DNA from: Cytophagales bacterium
GTDB lineage: Bacteria; Bacteroidota; Bacteroidia; Cytophagales; Cyclobacteriaceae
NCBI GenBank assembly: GCA_005788235.1
Contig: SXYU01000065.1
Span: 1 to 32,424 of the forward strand
Length of the DNA: 32,424 nt
Reading direction: 5' to 3'
Shown here piece by piece: positions 1 through 30,563 of this stretch (position 1 is its first letter; each line of letters begins with the position of its first letter). The position numbers were made by a program, and so were the translations under genes. The notes below the pieces were generated by a model, which was not told the origin of the DNA, did not search any database, and saw only the letters and a program-made list of their open reading frames with translations.

Positions 1-603
1 GTTAGCCACTTTTTCTTTCAGATACTTTAAGTCAAACTTGAGGCTTGGCGCTTCAAAATGCTTTTCAGGATAGCCCGCTACGCCCACACAAAAATCAGTT
101 TGGAAGCTCGGCTCGGTTTCCTCGTGTAGGTACTTACCTGGGTTCATGCGGACCACTTGGGCCACGAGTTCGCTAGCACACGAGTGCCCATTAGGCTCGC
201 CTACAAAGCGTTCTGCTTTAGGAGCATCCCCACGAAGGGCCAGCACATTTTCTACCCCAATAAAATCAAGATCAATCAACAGGTTTTCCGTTTCCTCTTT
301 AGTGAAGCCTCCACAAAGCACATGCGGCACGGCATCTACATCAAATCGGTTGATCAAGGCAGCACAAATCCCAACAGTTCCTGGGCGTTTCTTCGTGCTT
401 ACCTTCTCTAGAAGTCCATTGGTATGCTTCTTATAAATGTACTCCTCACGGTGGTAGGTCACATCCACAAATGGGGGGTTAAACTCCATTAAAGGGGAAA
501 TACCCTCCATGAGCTCCTTCAAACTTTGTCCTTTTAGTGGAGGAAGAATTTCAAAGGAAAAGAGGGTTCCTTTTGCGTTTTTTATATGTTCAGTGATTTT
601 CAT
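1..603 (-). CDS. metF: methylenetetrahydrofolate reductase, partial (C-terminus runs off the window start)
   Basis: Minus-strand open frame from ATG at 603 ([53 protein letters not shown]...[10 protein letters not shown]...); MetF FEffPPk-like and LRGDxP motifs; directly downstream of metH. Confidence 0.9.
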
Positions 604-3296
604 TGTGGTATAGTCTCAAGAATTGCAGTTGGAGTGTAGGCCAAATTTGGAGAAAGTAAACGCTCAGCAGCCTGGAGACCGATGCCTTTTCGCTTTGCAT
701 AACTTTCTACTTGGTCGGCACCAATTTTTCCTAAGCCAAAATAGCTGCTTTCGGGGTGTGCAAAGAAGAATCCAGAAACTGAGCTAGTCGGATACATGGC
801 GTAGCTGGATGTCAAGGTAATTCCTATCGTATTTTCTAAATCTAACAATTCAGAAATAGTCAGCTTCTCCGAGTGCTCTGGACAGGCTGGATAGCCAGGT
901 GCTGGACGGATACCTAGGTATTCCTCGCTAACCAAGGCCTCGTTGGATAGCTGCTCCTGAGGGGCATAGCCCCAAAGTTCCTTTCGTGTCAATTCATGTA
1001 AGTATTCGGTAGCTGCCTCTGCCAATCTATCGGCCAAGGCCTTAAACAAAATGTCGTTGTAATCATCCCCTGCCGCTTGAAATTCGGCTAGCTTCGTTTC
1101 CATGCCGAGCCCGGAGGTGACAGCAAAGCAACCTAAGTAGTCCAGCTGGTCAGGATGCAAGTAATCGACTAGGGAGCGATTTGGCACTCCCTTGCCTTTT
1201 TTACCCTGCTGCCTCAAGAAGTGAAAGCTGGTAATGGATTCCCCTTTTTCGTTCAGCACACGGGCATCATCGCCTTCGCGTTGCACAGGAAATAAGGAAC
1301 ATACTGCCTTGGCAGTGAGCCATTTTTCTTTGATTAAGGTATCTAGCATGGCTTCTGCGTCTGCAAAAAGGCGGGTAGCCTCTTCTCCGACCACAGGATC
1401 GGCCAATATCTTTGGGAACTTGCCACTTAGCATCCAGGTACTGAAGAATGGTGTCCAATCAATGTACTTTCTCAACACCGATAAGTCTAGTTCCTCAAGC
1501 ACTGTTCTACCCAAAACTTTTGGCTTCATAGGAGCAATTCCTGCCCACTCGATTGGCACCGGGTTGGCCATGGCCTCCTCATAGGAAATTAACTGCTTGA
1601 CCGCCTGCTTGGCTTCGTGCTCTTCCCGCAAAGCCTTGTATATGGCCTTCAGATTGATGCGGTAGCTTTCGCTAGTTTCTGGTGAAATAGACTCCCCTGC
1701 GATAGGAACCGACTTACTCGCATCTGTGACGTGAATGACACAACCGGAATACATAGGATCAATTTTCACTGCGGTATGAATTCTGGAAGTAGTGGCTCCA
1801 CCGATAAGCAAAGGTATCGTCAGCCCTTGGCGCTCCATTTCAGAAGCCACATTGACCATTTCGTCTAGGGAAGGAGTAATCAATCCACTCAATCCAATAA
1901 TATCTACCTTGTTTTTGATCGCCTCGTCAATGATTTTTTGTGCATCTACCATCACACCGAGGTCGATGATTTGGTAGCTATTACAGGCCAAAACTACTCC
2001 TACGATGTTTTTACCGATGTCGTGTACATCTCCTTTTACGGTTGCTAGGAGGATTTTCTTTAGGGAAGAGGCTTCTTGACCCTCCTCTGGAAGCGGCATA
2101 AAAGGCTCCAAATAGGCTACTGCCTTTTTCATTACTCGTGCAGACTTCACTACTTGGGGAAGGAACATTTTTCCTTCACCAAACAAGTCTCCTACTACAT
2201 TCATTCCATCCATCAAAGGCCCTTCAATCACTTTCAGAGGATTGACCAATTCAAGGCGTGCTGACTCAGTATCCTCAATAATAAAGTCCAAAATACCTTT
2301 CACCAAGGCATGTTCAATTCGCTTGGCTACTGGAGCAGCTCTCCAGGCCTCGTTCACCACTTCTTTTTTATCCGCAGACTTCACCGTTTCAGCAAAGTCC
2401 AGTAGGCGCTCGGTAGCGTCCTCCCTACGATCAAATAATACATCTTCCACCCTCTCCAATAATTCCTTATCGATATCGGCATATACCTCGAGCATGGTGG
2501 GGTTGACAATTCCCATATCCATCCCATGCTGGATTGCATGGTAAAGGAAAGCGGCGTGCATGGCTTCGCGCACAGGATCATTTCCCCGGAAGGAAAAAGA
2601 TACGTTGCTGACGCCACCACTTACCTTGGCACCGGGAAGATTTTGCTTGATCCAGCGCGTTGCATTAAAGAAGTCAACCGCATTCTTGCGGTGCTCTTCC
2701 ATCCCTGTAGCTACTGGGAAAATATTGGGATCAAAAATGATGTCTTGCGGATTAAACTTTACGTAATCTACTAAGATTCGGTAGCTACGCTCACAGATTT
2801 GGATGCGTCTCTCGTAGGTATCAGCCTGTCCCTTCTCATCGAAAGCCATCACCACTACTGCAGCGCCAAATTTTTTGATGGTCTTCGCCTGCTGTATAAA
2901 TTCTTCTTCCCCGTTTTTTAGGGAAATGGAGTTCACAATACCTTTTCCCTGCACACACTTCAATCCGGCAAGGATGATACTCCACTTGGAACTATCAATA
3001 ACGATTGGAATACGGCTAATCTCCGGTTCAGAAGCAATCAAGTTGAGAAAGCGAACCATAGCAAACTCGCCATCCAGCATCCCCTCGTCCATGCAGACGT
3101 CCAAAACCTGTGCACCACCTCGAACTTGGTCTAAAGCGATATCTAAGGCGTCATCGTATTGGCCATTGAGGATGAGGCGGGCAAATTTTTTGGATCCAGT
3201 GATATTGGTTCGTTCGCCGATATTCACAAAGTTGAGCGTAGGTGTAAATACCAAAGGCTCAAGGCCAGAAAGCTTCAGATAGTTAGGCTTAAGCAT
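600..3296 (-). CDS. metH: methionine synthase, pterin-binding/cobalamin-binding/activation-domain half of a split MetH
   Basis: Translation has pterin-binding ([14 protein letters not shown]), cobalamin-binding ([30 protein letters not shown]) and C-terminal activation-domain sequence. ORF track starts at 3368, but [11 protein letters not shown] at 3296 is the likelier start, overlapping the upstream stop. Confidence 0.92.
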
Positions 3297-4347
3297 GTTG
3301 CTCCTCCTCTTCCGTAAATTGACCAATTTGTCTTGGGCTATATTCGGCTGCCAGCTGTGCCAAAGCACGAATATGGTCAGGAGTAGTGCCGCAGCAGCCT
3401 CCCAAAATATTCAGCATTCCCTCTTTCAAAAAAGTTCGTACTTGATCCGCCATTTCATTAGCTCCTTGGTCATAGGCGCCAAATTCGTTGGGCAAACCAG
3501 CATTGGGGTAGGCAGACACATAAAATGGGGCCTCTTGCGCGAGCACCTTCAAGTAAGGTCGAAGTTCCTTAGCTCCTAAGGCACAGTTGAGGCCTACAGA
3601 AAATAAGGGTACATGGGATACCGAAATTAAAAAAGCTTCGGTGGTCTGTCCAGAAAGCGTTCGTCCAGAGGCATCGGTAATGGTTCCTGAAATCATTATT
3701 GGAATTCCTCCCTCTCTTGCGTCTAGGGGAATATTTCGCTCCTCATACACTTCCTGAATGGCATAGAGAGCAGCCTTGGCATTGAGTGTGTCAAAAATGG
3801 TCTCTACCAGAATTAGGTCGGCACCCCCATCCAATAAGCCCCTTACCTGCTCCGCGTAGGCTTCTGCTAGCTGATCAAAGGTGATGGCACGGTATCCAGG
3901 ATCGTTTACATCAGGTGAGATAGATGCAGTTCGGTTGGTTGGACCCATCGCACCAGCTACAAAGCGTGGTTTGTCTGGGCTAGTCTCCGTGAATGCATCT
4001 GCAACCTCTCGAGCAATTTTGGTAGATTCAAAATTGATTTCATAAGCCAGGTGGGACAAGCCATAATCTTCCTGAGCAATGGTCGTTCCTGAAAAAGTAT
4101 TTGTTTCAATGATATCCGAACCAGCCTCTAGGTATTCCTTATGAATCGCACGAATGATATCGGGTCTACTTAGGGAAAGGAGGTCATTATTGCCTTTTAA
4201 AGACTTGGGATGGTCTTTTAAAGCTAGAGTCCTAAAATCTTCTTCGGTAAGGGTGTAACGTTGAATCATGGTACCCATGGCACCGTCTAGGATTAAAATC
4301 CTATTTTTAACTGCTTGGAGCAGTTGGTCCGTTCTGTTTTGTCTCAT
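3289..4347 (-). CDS. homocysteine S-methyltransferase domain half of a split MetH
   Basis: [38 protein letters not shown]...; C-terminal zinc-binding [11 protein letters not shown] motif. Confidence 0.92.
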
Positions 4348-4411: not shown

Positions 4412-4510
4412 TTCTCATCTATTCTTGGCATATCCAAGAGGGGAGTTAGCACCTTGATTACAGGTTGCTAAGACGTCAAAGGGCCCATCCCTCGGTCTTT
4501 CTCGATAAGT
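4412..4510 (-). ncRNA. SAM-I riboswitch (S-box leader)
   Basis: Reverse complement reads CTTATCGAGAAAGACCGAGGGATGGGCCCTTTGACGTCTTAGCAACCTGTAATCAAGGTGCTAACTCC...CTCTTGGATATGCCAAGAATAGATGAG. It matches S-box landmarks (CUUAUCnAGA, GAGGGA-UGGCCC-UUGACG, GCAACC, AAGGUGCUAAcUCC, closing GAUGAG) and sits in the metH leader. Confidence 0.92.
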
Positions 4511-4515
4511 AACTG

Positions 4516-23254: not shown

Positions 23255-23549
23255 AGTTTTAACCTAACCTACTTTTTGATTCTGTTACTTTTTTACTAAA
23301 AAGCACAAATGATTAAAAAGATATACTGTTAAATTTCAAGTAAATAGCTTCCAAAACCCCTAAATCGAAGAGCGATTACACCTCTATAATTTGTTTAACT
23401 CAAAGAGGTTTATATCGAATTTAAAACAACTTATACCCTTTTTTTTACAGATTTTCAAAAAAAAGCAGGGATTGATTTTGAATTCTAAGTTGCTTTTAGC
23501 TTATCTTAGATGCGTTATTTATACATTCCAACACTTAATCCCTAGAACA

Positions 23550-23879
23550 TTGGAAGATCACCGAGGATACGATCGAGAGGAAATTTTCTCAAAGAAAGTA
23601 AAAGCAGGAAAGCGAACCTATTTTTTTGATATCAAGTCCACCCGTGGCAACGATTATTACCTGACCATCACCGAAAGCAAGCGAAGAATGGATGGAGACA
23701 ACTTCAGTTACGAGAAGCACAAAATCTTTTTGTACAAGGAAGATTTCTTCAAATTTGTAAATGCATTGAACGAAGCAGTTGATCATGTGAAAAACGATTT
23801 ACTTCCTGATTTTGACTTTGAGCAGTTTGAAAATGTAGATTCTGAAAACGAACTTAACAATGACTTGCGCTGGGAATAA
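23550..23879 (+). CDS. DUF3276 / PUR-domain nucleic-acid-binding protein
   Basis: LEDHRGYDREEIFSKKVKAGKRTYFFDIKSTRGNDYYLTITESKRRMDGDNFSYEKHKIFLYKEDFFKFVNAL: typical PUR fold. Likely TTG start at 23550; upstream part of the ORF (23391-23549) looks non-coding. Confidence 0.85.
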   Translation: MEDHRGYDREEIFSKKVKAGKRTYFFDIKSTRGNDYYLTITESKRRMDGDNFSYEKHKIFLYKEDFFKFVNALNEAVDHVKNDLLPDFDFEQFENVDSENELNNDLRWE

Positions 23880-23957: not shown

Positions 23958-25052
23958 ATGCAGCGGTTTTTCGTCTACCTCACTCTATTCTTTGCCACTT
24001 TCCTAGTGTTTGGTTGGAATTTTTCTGCTATTTCTCTTTATTTAGTTACCTCACTCATTCTAGCTGCACTGCTGAGACCACTCACAAATAAGGTCAATGA
24101 AGTACATATTCTAGGTCAACACATTCCACGCGGCATTGCTATTCTAGCCTCCTATGCCACTGTAGTTTCTATTGTATTCTTGTTAGGACTGCTATTTTTT
24201 CCATTAATCAATCGCCAAGTCATTTTGCTGAGCGATTTGGATTTGGAAAGCATCTACTTGCAACTTGAAGTTCCCCTTGAGAAGCTAGAGCGGTTTTTGA
24301 TGAAGTACCAACTTATTGAAAATAAAAAAGGCATACTCCTCGAAGAATTGCGCCTTTCCGTACAAACTGCACTTCAAAAATTTGATATTGGCGGATTCAT
24401 CACTGGCGTGATCTCTGTTACTAGCAGCATATTTATAGGAACAATGGCGGTAGCCTTTATCACTTTTTTCCTACTTCTTGAAAATGGGCTTCTGCGTAGA
24501 AACCTATTAAATCTTATTCCAAATGCCTATTTCGAGCTATCGGTAGCCACCTTTACTAAAGTCGAAAAATTGCTCTCGAATTATCTTTTTGGGTTACTCC
24601 TTCAGGTTTTAGCGATTTTTCTTCTAGCTGCTTCAGGCCTAAGCCTAGCAGGAGTCGAATACGCATTGACCATTGCCTTATTTGCAGCAATTGCCAACCT
24701 CATCCCCTATGCTGGTCCAATCCTGGGCACCATTTTCGGCATCGTGGTGGGGGTTTCGACAGGATATTTTGTGACGGACAACGATTATAATTATTTGCTT
24801 TTTAAGATTATCTCTGTTTTTGCAGTGGTTCAAATCACCGATAATGTGCTGCTACAGCCTGTAATTTTTTCCAAATCAGTAAAAGCACATCCCCTTGAGA
24901 TATTTGTTATTATCTTTGCCGGTGCAAAAATCGCAGGAATCCTAGGGATGATATTTGCCATACCCGTTTACACCATTTTCAGAGTATCGGTCTTGGAATT
25001 TTACAGTGGGTACAAGTCCTACAAAATATTTAAAATTAAAGCAACGAATTAA
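23958..25052 (+). CDS. AI-2E family transporter (paralogue 2)
   Basis: Multi-[26 protein letters not shown] and [46 protein letters not shown]. Confidence 0.88.
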
Positions 25053-26149
25053 TGGCATTACAATGTGGCATAGTAGGTCTCCCCAATGTGGGCAAATCTA
25101 CCTTGTTTAATGCGCTATCAAGCGCCAAAGCTGAAGCAGCTAACTTTCCTTTTTGCACCATCGAACCCAATGTAGGGGTAGTTTCAGTACCCGATTCTCG
25201 CCTCCAGGAACTTGAGGCACTCGTAAATCCACAACGGGTAGTACCTACGATCATTGAGTTTGTGGATATCGCTGGATTGGTGAAAGGTGCTTCCAAAGGA
25301 GAAGGCTTAGGCAATAAATTTCTTGCCAATATCCGGGAAGTAGATGCCATCATTCACGTCATCCGTTGCTTTGAAGACGACAACATCGTGCACGTTGCTG
25401 GTGGAGTAGATCCCTTGTTCGACAAGGAGGTCATTGACACTGAACTGCAGCTCAAGGATTTGGAGTCCATTGAAAAGAAGATTCAGCGCATTGAAAAAAT
25501 GGCCAAATCTGGGGATGCCAAATTCAAAAGAGAGTTGGAAACGCTACTACTATTTAAAGAGAGTCTGACAGCAGGCCTGAATGCTCGGGCGATTGAAGTG
25601 GATAAAGAAGATCTAGAGGCCGTACGAGATCTGCATCTCCTCACCATTAAGCCAGTGCTCTATGTGGCCAATGTAGATGAATCAAGTATTCATACAGGCA
25701 ATGCCTTTGTCGACCGACTACGGGAAAAGGTGAAAGAGGAAAACGCAGAAGTCATCATCCTATGTGCAGCGATAGAGTCTCAAATCGCAGAATTCGATGA
25801 CCCTGAAGAAAAAGGACTATTTTTAGGTGAGTACGGTCTTAATGAAAGTGGGCTGAATCGTTTGATCAATGGTGCTTATACCCTACTCAATTTGATCACC
25901 TACTTTACTGCCGGCGTACAAGAAGTTCGCGCCTGGACCATACGCAAAGGCTGGAAAGCTCCCCAGGCTGCAGGGGTGATTCATACTGACTTCGAAAGAG
26001 GATTTATCAAAGCAGAAGTCATTGCAATCGCTGACTACAAACAATTTAAGACCGAAGCTGGTTGTAGAGAGAACGGCAAAATATCCATCGAAGGCAAGGA
26101 ATACATTGTTCAAGATGGTGATATTATGCATTTTAGGTTCAATGTTTGA
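25052..26149 (+). CDS. ychF: redox-regulated ATPase YchF (Obg-family GTPase/ATPase)
   Basis: [44 protein letters not shown]...; C-terminal TGS-like domain. ATG overlaps the upstream TAA by 1 nt. Confidence 0.96.
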
Positions 26150-26177
26150 TTTTTCCTGAAAAAATTATGTAATTTTG
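26145..26177 (+). promoter_or_regulatory. Bacteroidota-type promoter for the cas6-like gene
   Basis: TTTG (26145-26148, overlapping the ychF stop), 21 nt, TAATTTTG (26170-26177): good match to TTTG...TAnnTTTG. Confidence 0.6.
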
Positions 26178-26245: not shown

Positions 26246-27136
26246 GTGAGAGTTAGACTGATATTTTCCTTAAAAAACAAAGGGTCTTTTTTGCCCTTCC
26301 ATCACCAGTATATCCTGGCCCAATTCCTGAAAGGACTGATCATCAAAGGAGGAAGGGAAGATTTCTACAACTATAATTTCTTTAATTTCTCGGGGTTAAA
26401 GGGACAGACCAAGGTCAGCCGTAGTGGGTTACACTACTACTCTAGTTTGGTGACACTCGTCCTTTCCTCTCAAAGTGAAGAATTGATTGATTATTTGCTA
26501 GAACAAGTATTTGCAGCTCCAAAAATTGAGCTTGGCAATTTGATTCTTTCCCCAGAGTACACCGAACTAGAGATGGAACCCACTTTGGAAGTTTCAAATA
26601 AGTTTGTCTGCATCTCTCCTTTGGTGCTCATCACTCCCGCATTCAATGAAGAAGCGGGGAAGCGATTTATCAATCCAGATAGTGACGAGTTTTCTGATTT
26701 GTTGTACGAATCAACTTTGACCAGAATGGAAAAATCAGGATGGTATACCCCAGAACAAATGGAGTCTTTTTTCAAGTTCCAGGTAGTGCCAGACATGGTC
26801 TATGTCAACAAGTTGAAAGAGCAGCAAAAGAAATTTGCACGAATTTATGCCGTTTACGACCTAGATGTGAAATATGAAGTCAGAGGCTACACACTTCCTT
26901 TTACGCTTTACGCAGCTCCTGAAGTACAAGATTTCGTATTTAAGTGTGGACTAGGTGCTTTTACCCACAAGGGTTTTGGGATGATGGACTTGGCTACGCA
27001 TCCTGCCGATAATAAAACAACGCCATACAAATTCAAAAGAGAGGGATTTGTTCCTTACAAATCCACTGTCGATCGAGTGAGACAAAATGTAGCTCCAACA
27101 GAAGAAGAAACAGAGGCTTCCTCAGAGGAAATTTAA
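26246..27136 (+). CDS. cas6: stand-alone CRISPR-associated endoribonuclease Cas6-like protein
   Basis: N-terminal RAMP pattern MRVRLIFSLKNKGSFLPFHHQYILAQFLKGLI, NFFNFSGLKG, and C-terminal glycine-rich loop VFKCGLGAFTHKGFGMMDL characteristic of Cas6. GTG start; acidic C-terminal tail. Confidence 0.88.
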   Translation: MRVRLIFSLKNKGSFLPFHHQYILAQFLKGLIIKGGREDFYNYNFFNFSGLKGQTKVSRSGLHYYSSLVTLVLSSQSEELIDYLLEQVFAAPKIELGNLILSPEYTELEMEPTLEVSNKFVCISPLVLITPAFNEEAGKRFINPDSDEFSDLLYESTLTRMEKSGWYTPEQMESFFKFQVVPDMVYVNKLKEQQKKFARIYAVYDLDVKYEVRGYTLPFTLYAAPEVQDFVFKCGLGAFTHKGFGMMDLATHPADNKTTPYKFKREGFVPYKSTVDRVRQNVAPTEEETEASSEEI

Positions 27137-27156: not shown

Positions 27157-27194
27157 CTAACCCCTAACATGAAAATCTTGGGGGTTATTTTTTT
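27157..27194 (+). terminator. Terminator-like hairpin after the cas6-like gene
   Basis: CTAACCCC-taacatgaaaatctt-GGGGGTTA-TTTTTTT. Confidence 0.7.
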
Positions 27195-27335
27195 ATCTGA
27201 TTATCCGATTTTGAACCACTGACCAAAAAAAGCCTGATGTTCAATTAGGTGAGCTGTGGCCTATGGTCTGTGAACGATTATCCGCAGTATTAAATAGGCA
27301 AGCTGAGTCACAATCGTGATTGCGGATAATCAGAT
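27195..27335. repeat. Intergenic element with two direct copies and one inverted copy of a GATTATCCG-containing arm
   Basis: ATCTGATTATCCG (27195-27207) is the exact inverse of CGGATAATCAGAT (27323-27335). GATTATCCGCA (27276-27286) is the exact inverse of TGCGGATAATC (27321-27331). Both left arms compete for the same right arm. Confidence 0.75.
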
Positions 27336-27354: not shown

Positions 27355-28623
27355 TCAGAGCCTTCTCCTATTGGGTTGCAGGTACACATACCCGACCAAC
27401 TGATCGTAGCGAGATCCAAGTGCTCGGTAATACACCAGAATCTCGTACTCATTCTCAGTTTGAAAATAACTCCCTTCTAAGGACTCAAAATCTAATTTCC
27501 CAGCTCCGAGATCTATTGCATATTGGTAGTCATACCATCCTTGCTTCAAAAGTAAGGAGGTGCTGTAGACACGCTTCTTGGCATCATAGACTAAGGTAGC
27601 TTCAGGTACTTTACCCCATTGACTTAGAGCGCCCATCAGTTTAATGGTTTTTCCTGGTAGATCATTCAAGTAAAAGGTAGTATAGATGTATTCACTTTCC
27701 ACTTCTGGGTCCCCTCCAGGCCTATCGTTCGTTTGTACTACATATTGCCCATTCAGGTCCAAATATTGTGCATAAGCTCCACTAGGACGAGGAAGATCTA
27801 CCCTTGCCTCAGCTGAAATTAACGATTCTTCTACCTTGATCGAGGCCACATTGACGCCTGTGGCGCGAATAAACCGTAAGTCTAAAAATCGAAACTCATT
27901 GCCCGCTCGAAAAGTGCTCTCCCCTTCAAATGGTTCGTAGCGAATCAACTTTGAGTTCTGGTTCAAAAAGGTGGGTTTGGAGAGGAACTTAACATTATCC
28001 CAGCGTTGATTTTGACGCATGTAAACCTTCACTTGGGCAAGAGGATCGATTACCTCTAGGTTGCTGTAATTCACCGTTGCATTGATTTGCTGCAAGGCCC
28101 GCCGATCTTCAGTCTGCACTGGAGGCACCAATTGTGCGCCGACCACAGCTAGATTCTCTACGATCATAAACCTCCGCGTGAAGATGACTGCGTTTTCATC
28201 TCGGTTCTTGTAAACTTTCAATAGGTAATTTCCAGATTTACTCACGCGAGGAATGGTGAATGAGTACCGGATATAGGGTACTCGCGTATTCACAGAGTAG
28301 GCATAATCCAATACATTGTACTCGTTAAATGCTAGCGAAAAATCAGTGTCTTTTAAGGCTGATTTTTTCCAATCTGCATCACAATGCACCAATTTGGCAG
28401 TATACAACTCGGGATCATAAGACAAATCATCAAACCACACCAGCAAAGACTTTGAATCAGTCAAGGAGATCACAGGAGAAAGTAACTGGCTTTCTGTCCC
28501 TGCACCCTGAGGGAAGATACGAACCGATAAAATATGATCGACGAATACTTTATCTTCTAGAACCTGTGCATTTATCCTTAATGTCAAGGTGATGAAGAGA
28601 ATAAAAATGAACCGTAATTTCAT
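27355..28623 (-). CDS. type IX secretion system plug protein (formerly DUF5103)
   Basis: QVLEDKVFVDHILSVRIFPQGAGTESQLLSPVISLTDSKSLLVWFDDLSYDPELYTAKLVHCDADW... matches the DUF5103/T9SS plug family; signal peptide present. Confidence 0.85.
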   Translation of the reverse strand: MKLRFIFILFITLTLRINAQVLEDKVFVDHILSVRIFPQGAGTESQLLSPVISLTDSKSLLVWFDDLSYDPELYTAKLVHCDADWKKSALKDTDFSLAFNEYNVLDYAYSVNTRVPYIRYSFTIPRVSKSGNYLLKVYKNRDENAVIFTRRFMIVENLAVVGAQLVPPVQTEDRRALQQINATVNYSNLEVIDPLAQVKVYMRQNQRWDNVKFLSKPTFLNQNSKLIRYEPFEGESTFRAGNEFRFLDLRFIRATGVNVASIKVEESLISAEARVDLPRPSGAYAQYLDLNGQYVVQTNDRPGGDPEVESEYIYTTFYLNDLPGKTIKLMGALSQWGKVPEATLVYDAKKRVYSTSLLLKQGWYDYQYAIDLGAGKLDFESLEGSYFQTENEYEILVYYRALGSRYDQLVGYVYLQPNRRRL

Positions 28624-28637
28624 AAAAATATTGAAAT

Positions 28638-30563
28638 TTAAGCGAGTGTGGCTTGCTGCTGAAGCTGGGAAATTTGATCAACCAACTTCTCCCAAGAGGT
28701 ATTTGCAACTTCAAGTGATTTATCCACTTGTTTGTAGTTAGCTTGGATTTTTTGAGTCTGAGCCTCATCCAAATACAAGGAAGGATCGGCTAGTTTATCC
28801 TCCAACTCCTCCTTTTTTTCTTCAAGCTGACTGATTTCTTTTTCAATCAGTTGCAACTGCTCTTCCAATTTTTTAAGCTCTTTCTTGGCCTGCTGGGCGT
28901 CTTCCTTACTTTTCGGAGGAGCCACTTCTGCCTTTACCTGTTTTTGAATAGGTGCGGAGGAGAACTCTAGCTGCTGACTTCTCCAAAACTCGTATTCCTC
29001 GTAGGTACCAGGGTATTCTTTTATTTCATGCTGCTCAATATACCAAATCTTGTTTGCCACACCTTTGATAAAATGGCGGTCATGGGAAACTGTGATAAAC
29101 GTACCTTCGTACTGCTGCAAGGCTTGAATTAGAATGTTGACCGATTGAAAATCCAAGTGGTTGGTCGGTTCATCAAGCAATAAAAAATTAGCCTCTGAGA
29201 TTAGTGTTTTGGCTAAGGCTACTCGAGATTTTTCTCCTCCTGATAGTACCTTGATTTTCTTGTACACTTCCTCGTTGGAAAACAAAAAACATCCCAGCAC
29301 CCCTCTCAACTCCATTTCTGTCTTCTTACTTCCCGCCTGAGACATTTCTTGAATGATCTCGTTATCCAGCGTCAATGCCTCCAGCTGGTGCTGCGCAAAA
29401 AAAGACTTGATAACATTATGGCCCTCCTGTCGGGAACCCTGAATCAATTCCGTGCCTGCAATGATACGGAGCAGGGTAGACTTTCCTTTTCCATTCGCTC
29501 CAATCAAGGCTATTTTATCTCCGCGCTCAATTCGTGCTACGGTATTTTTTAGAACTGTAAGCACTCCATAAGACTTGGAAACCTGATCTAAAGTCACCAC
29601 ATCGCGACCAGATTTTTGGGAAAACTTAAACTTAAAGTTCACAAAAGCCTCATCATTGACCACTTCATGCACCCGTTCCAGCCTATCCAAGGCCTTGATT
29701 CGGGATTGAACTTGGTTGGACTTGGTTGCCTTGGCGCGAAATCGCTCAATAAATTTCTCAGTTTGCTTGATCATCTGCTGCTGATTTTCAAAGGCGTTTT
29801 GCTGCAGTTCCATGCGGAGTTTTTTCTCCTCTCGATAAAAGGAATAATTGCCCGCATAGGCAGTCAAGGTCTCGTTGGCTACTTCTACTGTGGTACTAAT
29901 ACAGTTGTCCAAAAAAGTTTGATCGTGAGACACCACAATGACCGCCCCCTCATAATTTTTCAAGTAGTTTTCCACCCATTGGATGGATGGAAGGTCAAGG
30001 TGGTTGGTAGGCTCATCCAGCATTAGCAGTGAAGGCTTTTCCAGAAGCAACTTGGCAAGCATAACCCGCATTCTCCAGCCTCCAGAAAATTGTCGTAGTG
30101 GCTTTTGTAGGTCACTGGTTTGAAATCCTATTCCTTCCAGCACCTCTTCCGCCTTTGCCTTTATGGTGTAGCCTTCATTGGACTCAAATCGATCTTGTAA
30201 AAAAGCCAGTTTATTGATTACTTCGTCTGAATAGTCAGTCTCCATTAACTTTAAAACCTGCTCTATCTCACCTTGGATAGCTAAAGTTTCTTTGAAGGCA
30301 GCTAAAGCCACGTCCAAAATGCTATCGTCAGATTGGTAGGAAAGTAAATCCTGATTTAAAAAGCCGAGCGTACAATCTTTTGCCTTTTGTACATCGCCAG
30401 AGGACGGAAGATAATCACCGTTGATGATTTTAAGTAAGGTAGATTTCCCGGTACCATTTTGGCCTACAAGACCAATTTTGTCCTTTGGTTTGATGTGCAA
30501 GTTGGCATTCTCGTATAAAGCACGGCCGCCAATAAAATAAGAGAGGTTACTAATCGATAACAT
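28638..30563 (-). CDS. ABC-F family ATP-binding cassette protein (Uup/YheS-like)
   Basis: Two NBDs (GQNGTGKST/QFSGGWRMRVMLA and GANGKGKST/LSGGEKSRVALA), ABC-F linker, C-terminal coiled coil, no TM segments. Confidence 0.95.
   Translation of the reverse strand: MLSISNLSYFIGGRALYENANLHIKPKDKIGLVGQNGTGKSTLLKIINGDYLPSSGDVQKAKDCTLGFLNQDLLSYQSDDSILDVALAAFKETLAIQGEIEQVLKLMETDYSDEVINKLAFLQDRFESNEGYTIKAKAEEVLEGIGFQTSDLQKPLRQFSGGWRMRVMLAKLLLEKPSLLMLDEPTNHLDLPSIQWVENYLKNYEGAVIVVSHDQTFLDNCISTTVEVANETLTAYAGNYSFYREEKKLRMELQQNAFENQQQMIKQTEKFIERFRAKATKSNQVQSRIKALDRLERVHEVVNDEAFVNFKFKFSQKSGRDVVTLDQVSKSYGVLTVLKNTVARIERGDKIALIGANGKGKSTLLRIIAGTELIQGSRQEGHNVIKSFFAQHQLEALTLDNEIIQEMSQAGSKKTEMELRGVLGCFLFSNEEVYKKIKVLSGGEKSRVALAKTLISEANFLLLDEPTNHLDFQSVNILIQALQQYEGTFITVSHDRHFIKGVANKIWYIEQHEIKEYPGTYEEYEFWRSQQLEFSSAPIQKQVKAEVAPPKSKEDAQQAKKELKKLEEQLQLIEKEISQLEEKKEELEDKLADPSLYLDEAQTQKIQANYKQVDKSLEVANTSWEKLVDQISQLQQQATLA

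Follow-up and report, generated by a model that had tools for sequence, protein, structure and literature searches.

CRISPR proteins usually come and go with mobile defence loci. By profile, the best solved relatives of the family described here are the archaeal PH0350 (3qjj/3qjp) and 3ufc, both of which we take to be non-catalytic Cas6 paralogues, and archaea with paralogues of this type have many CRISPR arrays. Regarding catalysis, the Y31A and H46A substitutions of PfCas6 each abolish activity, SsoCas6 lacks the His yet is active, and Cas6 active sites are plastic (PMC3652601). Furthermore, processing of a non-CRISPR RNA by a Cas6 is already known, as Cas6-3 (Sso1422) of Sulfolobus solfataricus processes ncRNA60 (PMC4041471). 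Cas6-3 differs from the protein examined here in that it also cuts CRISPR repeats, is catalytic (K47 is needed) and belongs to a CRISPR-rich genome. In the open literature, subscription papers being outside this scope, we found neither a description of this orphan Cas6 family nor a lineage-wide, CRISPR-independent Cas6 family.

The Cas6-like gene studied here comes from an Algoriphagus MAG (Cyclobacteriaceae, Cytophagales; 2.31 Mb, 283 contigs, 84% complete) and lies in a stretch of 32,424 nucleotides, the whole of which was analysed and is referred to as the window (Table 1). Its ORF runs from a GTG start at 26246 to a stop codon at 27134-27136, exactly where a preliminary description of this DNA had placed it. 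Judged from profile comparisons, the ORF is a genuine Cas6 homologue. PF01881 matches the protein at 5.6e-21 (76 bits against a 23-bit Pfam cut-off), TIGR01877 scores 66.9 against a cut-off of 58.65, the PADLOC Cas6b model matches at 1e-26, and PDB profile matches range from 7e-14 to 6e-13, with 3ufc and PH0350 as the best. The HMM search thus gave no poor score and upholds the family call of the preliminary description. The N-terminal Cas6 model PF21350 reaches 14.7 bits, below its 27-bit cut-off; the PDB and hhalign matches extend across the N-terminal region, and hhalign of the orphan family against canonical Cas6 (99.8%, 20% identity) covers nearly the full length. PF10040, which models another kind of Cas6, for that reason has no match in the genome, and chance resemblance to Cas6 is ruled out by the genus-wide conservation of the gene. 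An AF2 model based on an alignment of 33 close relatives has a pLDDT of 41.6.

Table 1. Features of the window around the Cas6-like gene (positions in the window)
Feature	Coordinates	Strand	Remarks
DUF3276 (PF11680)	23391..23879	+	in the conserved block DUF3276 / AI-2E transporter / ychF / cas6-like
ychF	25052..26149	+	directly upstream, codirectional; partner conserved across families and orders
Putative Bacteroidota-type promoter	26145..26177	+	TTTG at 26145-26148, 21-nt spacer, TAATTTTG at 26170-26177
Orphan Cas6-like gene	26246..27136	+	296 aa, GTG start, single copy, housekeeping context
PFHHQ motif, aa 17-21	26294..26308	+	start of helix 1; H20 invariant (28/28)
FNFSGLKGQTK, aa 46-56	26381..26413	+	S49 and K52 invariant (alignment)
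KKFARIY, aa 195-201	26828..26848	+	subfamily-specific basic motif; K195 and R199 invariant
EVRGYTLPF, aa 211-219	26876..26902	+	subfamily-specific motif
Gly-rich loop GLGAFTHKGFG, aa 235-245	26948..26980	+	Cas6/RAMP-typical; G235/G237/G243/G245 invariant
Putative terminator	27159..27194	+	hairpin AACCCC...GGGGTT, then T-run
T9SS plug protein	27355..28623	-	convergent neighbour, kept in many families
ABC-F ATPase	28638..30563	-	next convergent neighbour

The active site region was examined in an alignment of 28 diverse members of the orphan family with 7 canonical Bacteroidota Cas6 proteins. Whereas 7/7 of the latter have the canonical Tyr, His and Lys/Arg, the orphans have the Tyr in 0/28 and the Lys/Arg in 3/28, and the His is deleted in 28/28; the catalytic triad of PfCas6 (Y31/H46/K52), taken as reference, is not found in the family. 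In canonical proteins, LHxxGY, which carries the catalytic His, and F[KR]LFTFS come just before the point at which the orphans have FNFSGLKGQTK, and this His segment of about 12 residues is what the orphans have deleted. In this alignment, then, the canonical Tyr/His/Lys site is lost, and the Gly-rich loop and basic residues are retained. Fixed in 28/28 orphans are H20, S49, K52, S124, P125, P144, F149, D151, F178, D183 and Y186, together with K195, R199, Y215, P218, F219, A223 and the Gly-rich loop. A Cas6 C-terminal domain with this loop is present (PF01881, TIGR01877, invariant glycines). The two stretches cited as Cas6 hallmarks in the preliminary description, PFHHQYILAQFLKGLI (aa 17-32) and GLGAFTHKGFG, both occur in the protein. 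The loop is indeed typical of Cas6/RAMP, but 'FHHQ', which lies where canonical proteins have N-[YH]-Q and whose H20 is invariant in the orphan subfamily only, is a subfamily feature and no general hallmark. In a tree, the orphans all fall to one side of a branch with moderate support (80/65). The protein probably has no canonical nuclease activity; since SsoCas6 works without the His, loss of the triad is no proof that catalysis is absent.

The gene is near-universal in its genus and family. It occurs in 36/37 genomes of the genus with identities of 84-97%, and the sole exception (G020) is 81% complete and also devoid of ychF, so that the locus is probably unassembled there. In the sample of the order, about 118 of 196 genomes carry one strong copy each, and the scores are bimodal, the orphans reaching at least 236 bits and canonical Cas6 no more than 63 bits. 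Strong matches were also found in about 20 of the 296 genomes sampled across the class, families of other orders among them, and the phylum sample outside the class gave only weak matches of canonical type (at most 85 bits). In GTDB, at least 402 contigs or loci encode relatives. Some whole families (f11, f12 and f14) have lost the gene clade-wise while their DUF3276-ychF block remains, and it is therefore not universally essential. Viral contigs and phages contained no family member, and the viral, phage and plasmid collections held no mobile copy save one, 51% identical, on a 602-kb secondary replicon of Bernardetia sp. (NZ_CP147018.1:328852-329628), where it is annotated as 'CRISPR-associated endoribonuclease Cas6'.

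The neighbourhood of ychF and the Cas6-like gene is kept in related genomes, a point that the preliminary description had proposed to check. Indeed, ychF is adjacent, upstream and codirectional in 97/97 loci holding both genes, with a gap of usually about 97 bp, and the adjacency extends to other orders (L150, L155-L158); in several lineages (L042, L052, L146, L151) the Cas6-like gene is placed elsewhere. The two genes co-evolve, their pairwise distances being correlated with r=0.96 (0/1000 permutations). Furthermore, the Cas6-like gene is under extreme purifying selection and as constrained as ychF, with dN/dS values, which are medians over unsaturated pairs only and few pairs per gene, of 0.024 for the Cas6-like gene, 0.028 for ychF, 0.034 for ABC-F, 0.060 for DUF3276 and 0.070 for the T9SS plug. 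The TTTG of the putative promoter overlaps the ychF stop codon, and TAnTTTTG is conserved upstream of the gene within Cyclobacteriaceae; we take TTTG-N21-TAATTTTG to be of the Bacteroidota promoter type. With a promoter-like box between the genes and a hairpin and T-run after the second, the Cas6-like gene may be transcribed alone. This apparent promoter of its own and its different location in several lineages mean that the linkage to ychF may reflect no more than passive synteny.

The gene is also decoupled from cas genes. In agreement with the preliminary description, the 32-kb window has no direct repeats of at least 20 bp within 150 bp, no CRISPR array in a separate scan and no other cas gene, and its other genes examined are housekeeping ones (metH, aconitase, DUF3276, AI-2E transporters, ychF, T9SS plug and ABC-F). 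The 84%-complete MAG itself gave no match to Cas1, Cas5, RAMPs, PF10040 or the divergent Cas6b model PDLC02104, which is suggestive of decoupling; since sequence is missing from such a MAG, relatives matter more. Across the genus, Cas1 was found in 10 genomes, RAMPs in 2 and Cas5 in 2. Among the 21 near-complete Algoriphagus genomes (completeness of at least 98%), 12 carry the Cas6-like gene and have no match to Cas1, Cas5 or RAMPs, nor to another Cas6 in the search that found the gene, and one of these 12 (G033) is a single 3.88-Mb contig. No array was detected at any orphan locus in the retrieved regions of genomes that were scanned. Every intact Cas6-needing CRISPR system examined in relatives has its own Cas6: the type I-B systems of G014, G021 and the close match G031, the system of G019 with its 46-repeat array, those of G016 (III-D), G039 and G058 (III-B), and that of G051, the system of G032 being left out of this tally as it lies on a truncated contig. 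As a separate observation, the type I-B locus of G014 (L054:5483-7049) has beside Cas3 and Cas8b a tandem pair of Cas6 genes (300 and 220 aa) that are not alike, with no array in the 14 kb retrieved and no Cas1 in the genome.

A normal Cas6 serving in trans arrays located elsewhere in the genome or population, as envisaged in the preliminary description, would agree with the Cas6 homology, with the occurrence of Cas1 in 19/49 genomes carrying the gene and with the incompleteness of the MAG, in which arrays could be missed. We nevertheless hold it to be very improbable, because the gene occurs in many genomes in which no CRISPR genes were detected, the 12 near-complete Algoriphagus genomes among them, and because the I-B, III-B and III-D systems of relatives each bring their own Cas6. 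No Cas1, Cas5 or RAMP match was obtained in the 84%-complete MAG, selection and phylogeny follow ychF and not mobile CRISPR loci, and the active site is lost. A solo gene without catalytic residues or cas neighbours could also be a relic, now decaying, of a CRISPR-Cas system since lost, but its ORF is intact in nearly all genomes, it is single copy across families and orders and has new invariant motifs, and its dN/dS of 0.024 leaves this explanation practically no chance, so that the selection data refute it.

It is unlikely, though less so, that the protein is an active endoribonuclease whose site has been re-invented (for example H20 + S49 + K52) and which processes a conserved housekeeping RNA in the manner of Sulfolobus Cas6-3 with ncRNA60. 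H20, S49 and K52 are invariant in the 28 diverse members despite loss of the triad, H20 and K52 could form a new catalytic site, and such an enzyme would accord with the plasticity of Cas6 active sites (PMC3652601) and the precedent for non-CRISPR RNA (PMC4041471). However, all three canonical positions are lost in the 28 members, the His-bearing segment is deleted, and the idea of active processing, also raised in the preliminary description, loses support for this reason; moreover, no candidate substrate RNA was found, Rfam returning just a SAM riboswitch at another place in the window. The nearest solved relatives, 3ufc and PH0350, are also presumably non-catalytic.

What we consider likely is that the protein belongs to a distinct Cas6 subfamily that works outside CRISPR and is inherited vertically in Cytophagales and in some further orders of Bacteroidia, and that it is an RNA-binding pseudo-nuclease. 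With canonical Cas6 and Cas6b (types I-B and III) it shares nearly full-length homology, the PF01881 domain and the Gly-rich loop, but differs from them by its vertical inheritance beside ychF with no CRISPR neighbours, the loss of the triad with the deletion and the sub-threshold PF21350 score; unlike PH0350 and 3ufc, it is found in another domain of life and is retained in genomes without any CRISPR gene detected. As hundreds of Bacteroidota genomes keep it next to ychF as an ordinary chromosomal gene, and in many of them searches gave no CRISPR genes, it probably binds a cellular RNA of its own and does not serve immunity. It would be a sequence- or hairpin-specific RNA-binding factor built on the two-RRM Cas6 platform, whose retention would allow it to bind a fixed cellular RNA. 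More speculatively, the ychF linkage and the housekeeping behaviour lead us to propose that its role would most likely be in translation or RNA turnover. The suggestion of a co-opted RNA-binding protein fixed in a housekeeping context, already made in the preliminary description, is strongly supported by conservation, synteny, selection and triad loss.

We give about even chances to a broader proposal, namely that exaptation of a Cas protein, deep in the evolution of Bacteroidia, gave rise to a core RNA-binding factor that is independent of CRISPR and linked to translation, possibly with a new H20/K52 active site, in which case hundreds of genes called 'CRISPR-associated endoribonuclease Cas6' would be misnamed. 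A Cas6 homologue retained as strictly as ychF in genomes where CRISPR genes were not detected would clearly exemplify a Cas protein in core RNA biology, or else a RAMP lineage that had no tie to CRISPR at any time, and it makes the direction in which Cas6 evolved testable. In practice, the orphan family would also represent a group of genes wrongly called as CRISPR components, as on the Bernardetia replicon.

Two candidate elements around the gene were rejected. Against a structured RNA at the locus, the AT-rich 5' leader shows little conservation beyond a T-rich stretch and the promoter-like box. A hairpin element downstream does not belong to the family, being a dispersed repeat. This 141-bp element (27195-27335) has terminal inverted repeats CTGATTATCCG/CGGATAATCAG, folds strongly (z -4.8) and, with 34 matches in its own genome and 44 in G005, represents a dispersed, MITE-like family present in some Algoriphagus. 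A conserved TTATTCACCC-like stretch, absent from the window's own clade, lies in the 5' leader about 50-70 bp upstream of many Algoriphagus copies of the gene (L068-L122). At the other end of the window, metH (600-4347, minus strand) consists of two overlapping ORFs (4347-3289 and 3368-600), which may be a natural split or a frameshift, and is preceded by the SAM riboswitch (4412-4511, minus strand).
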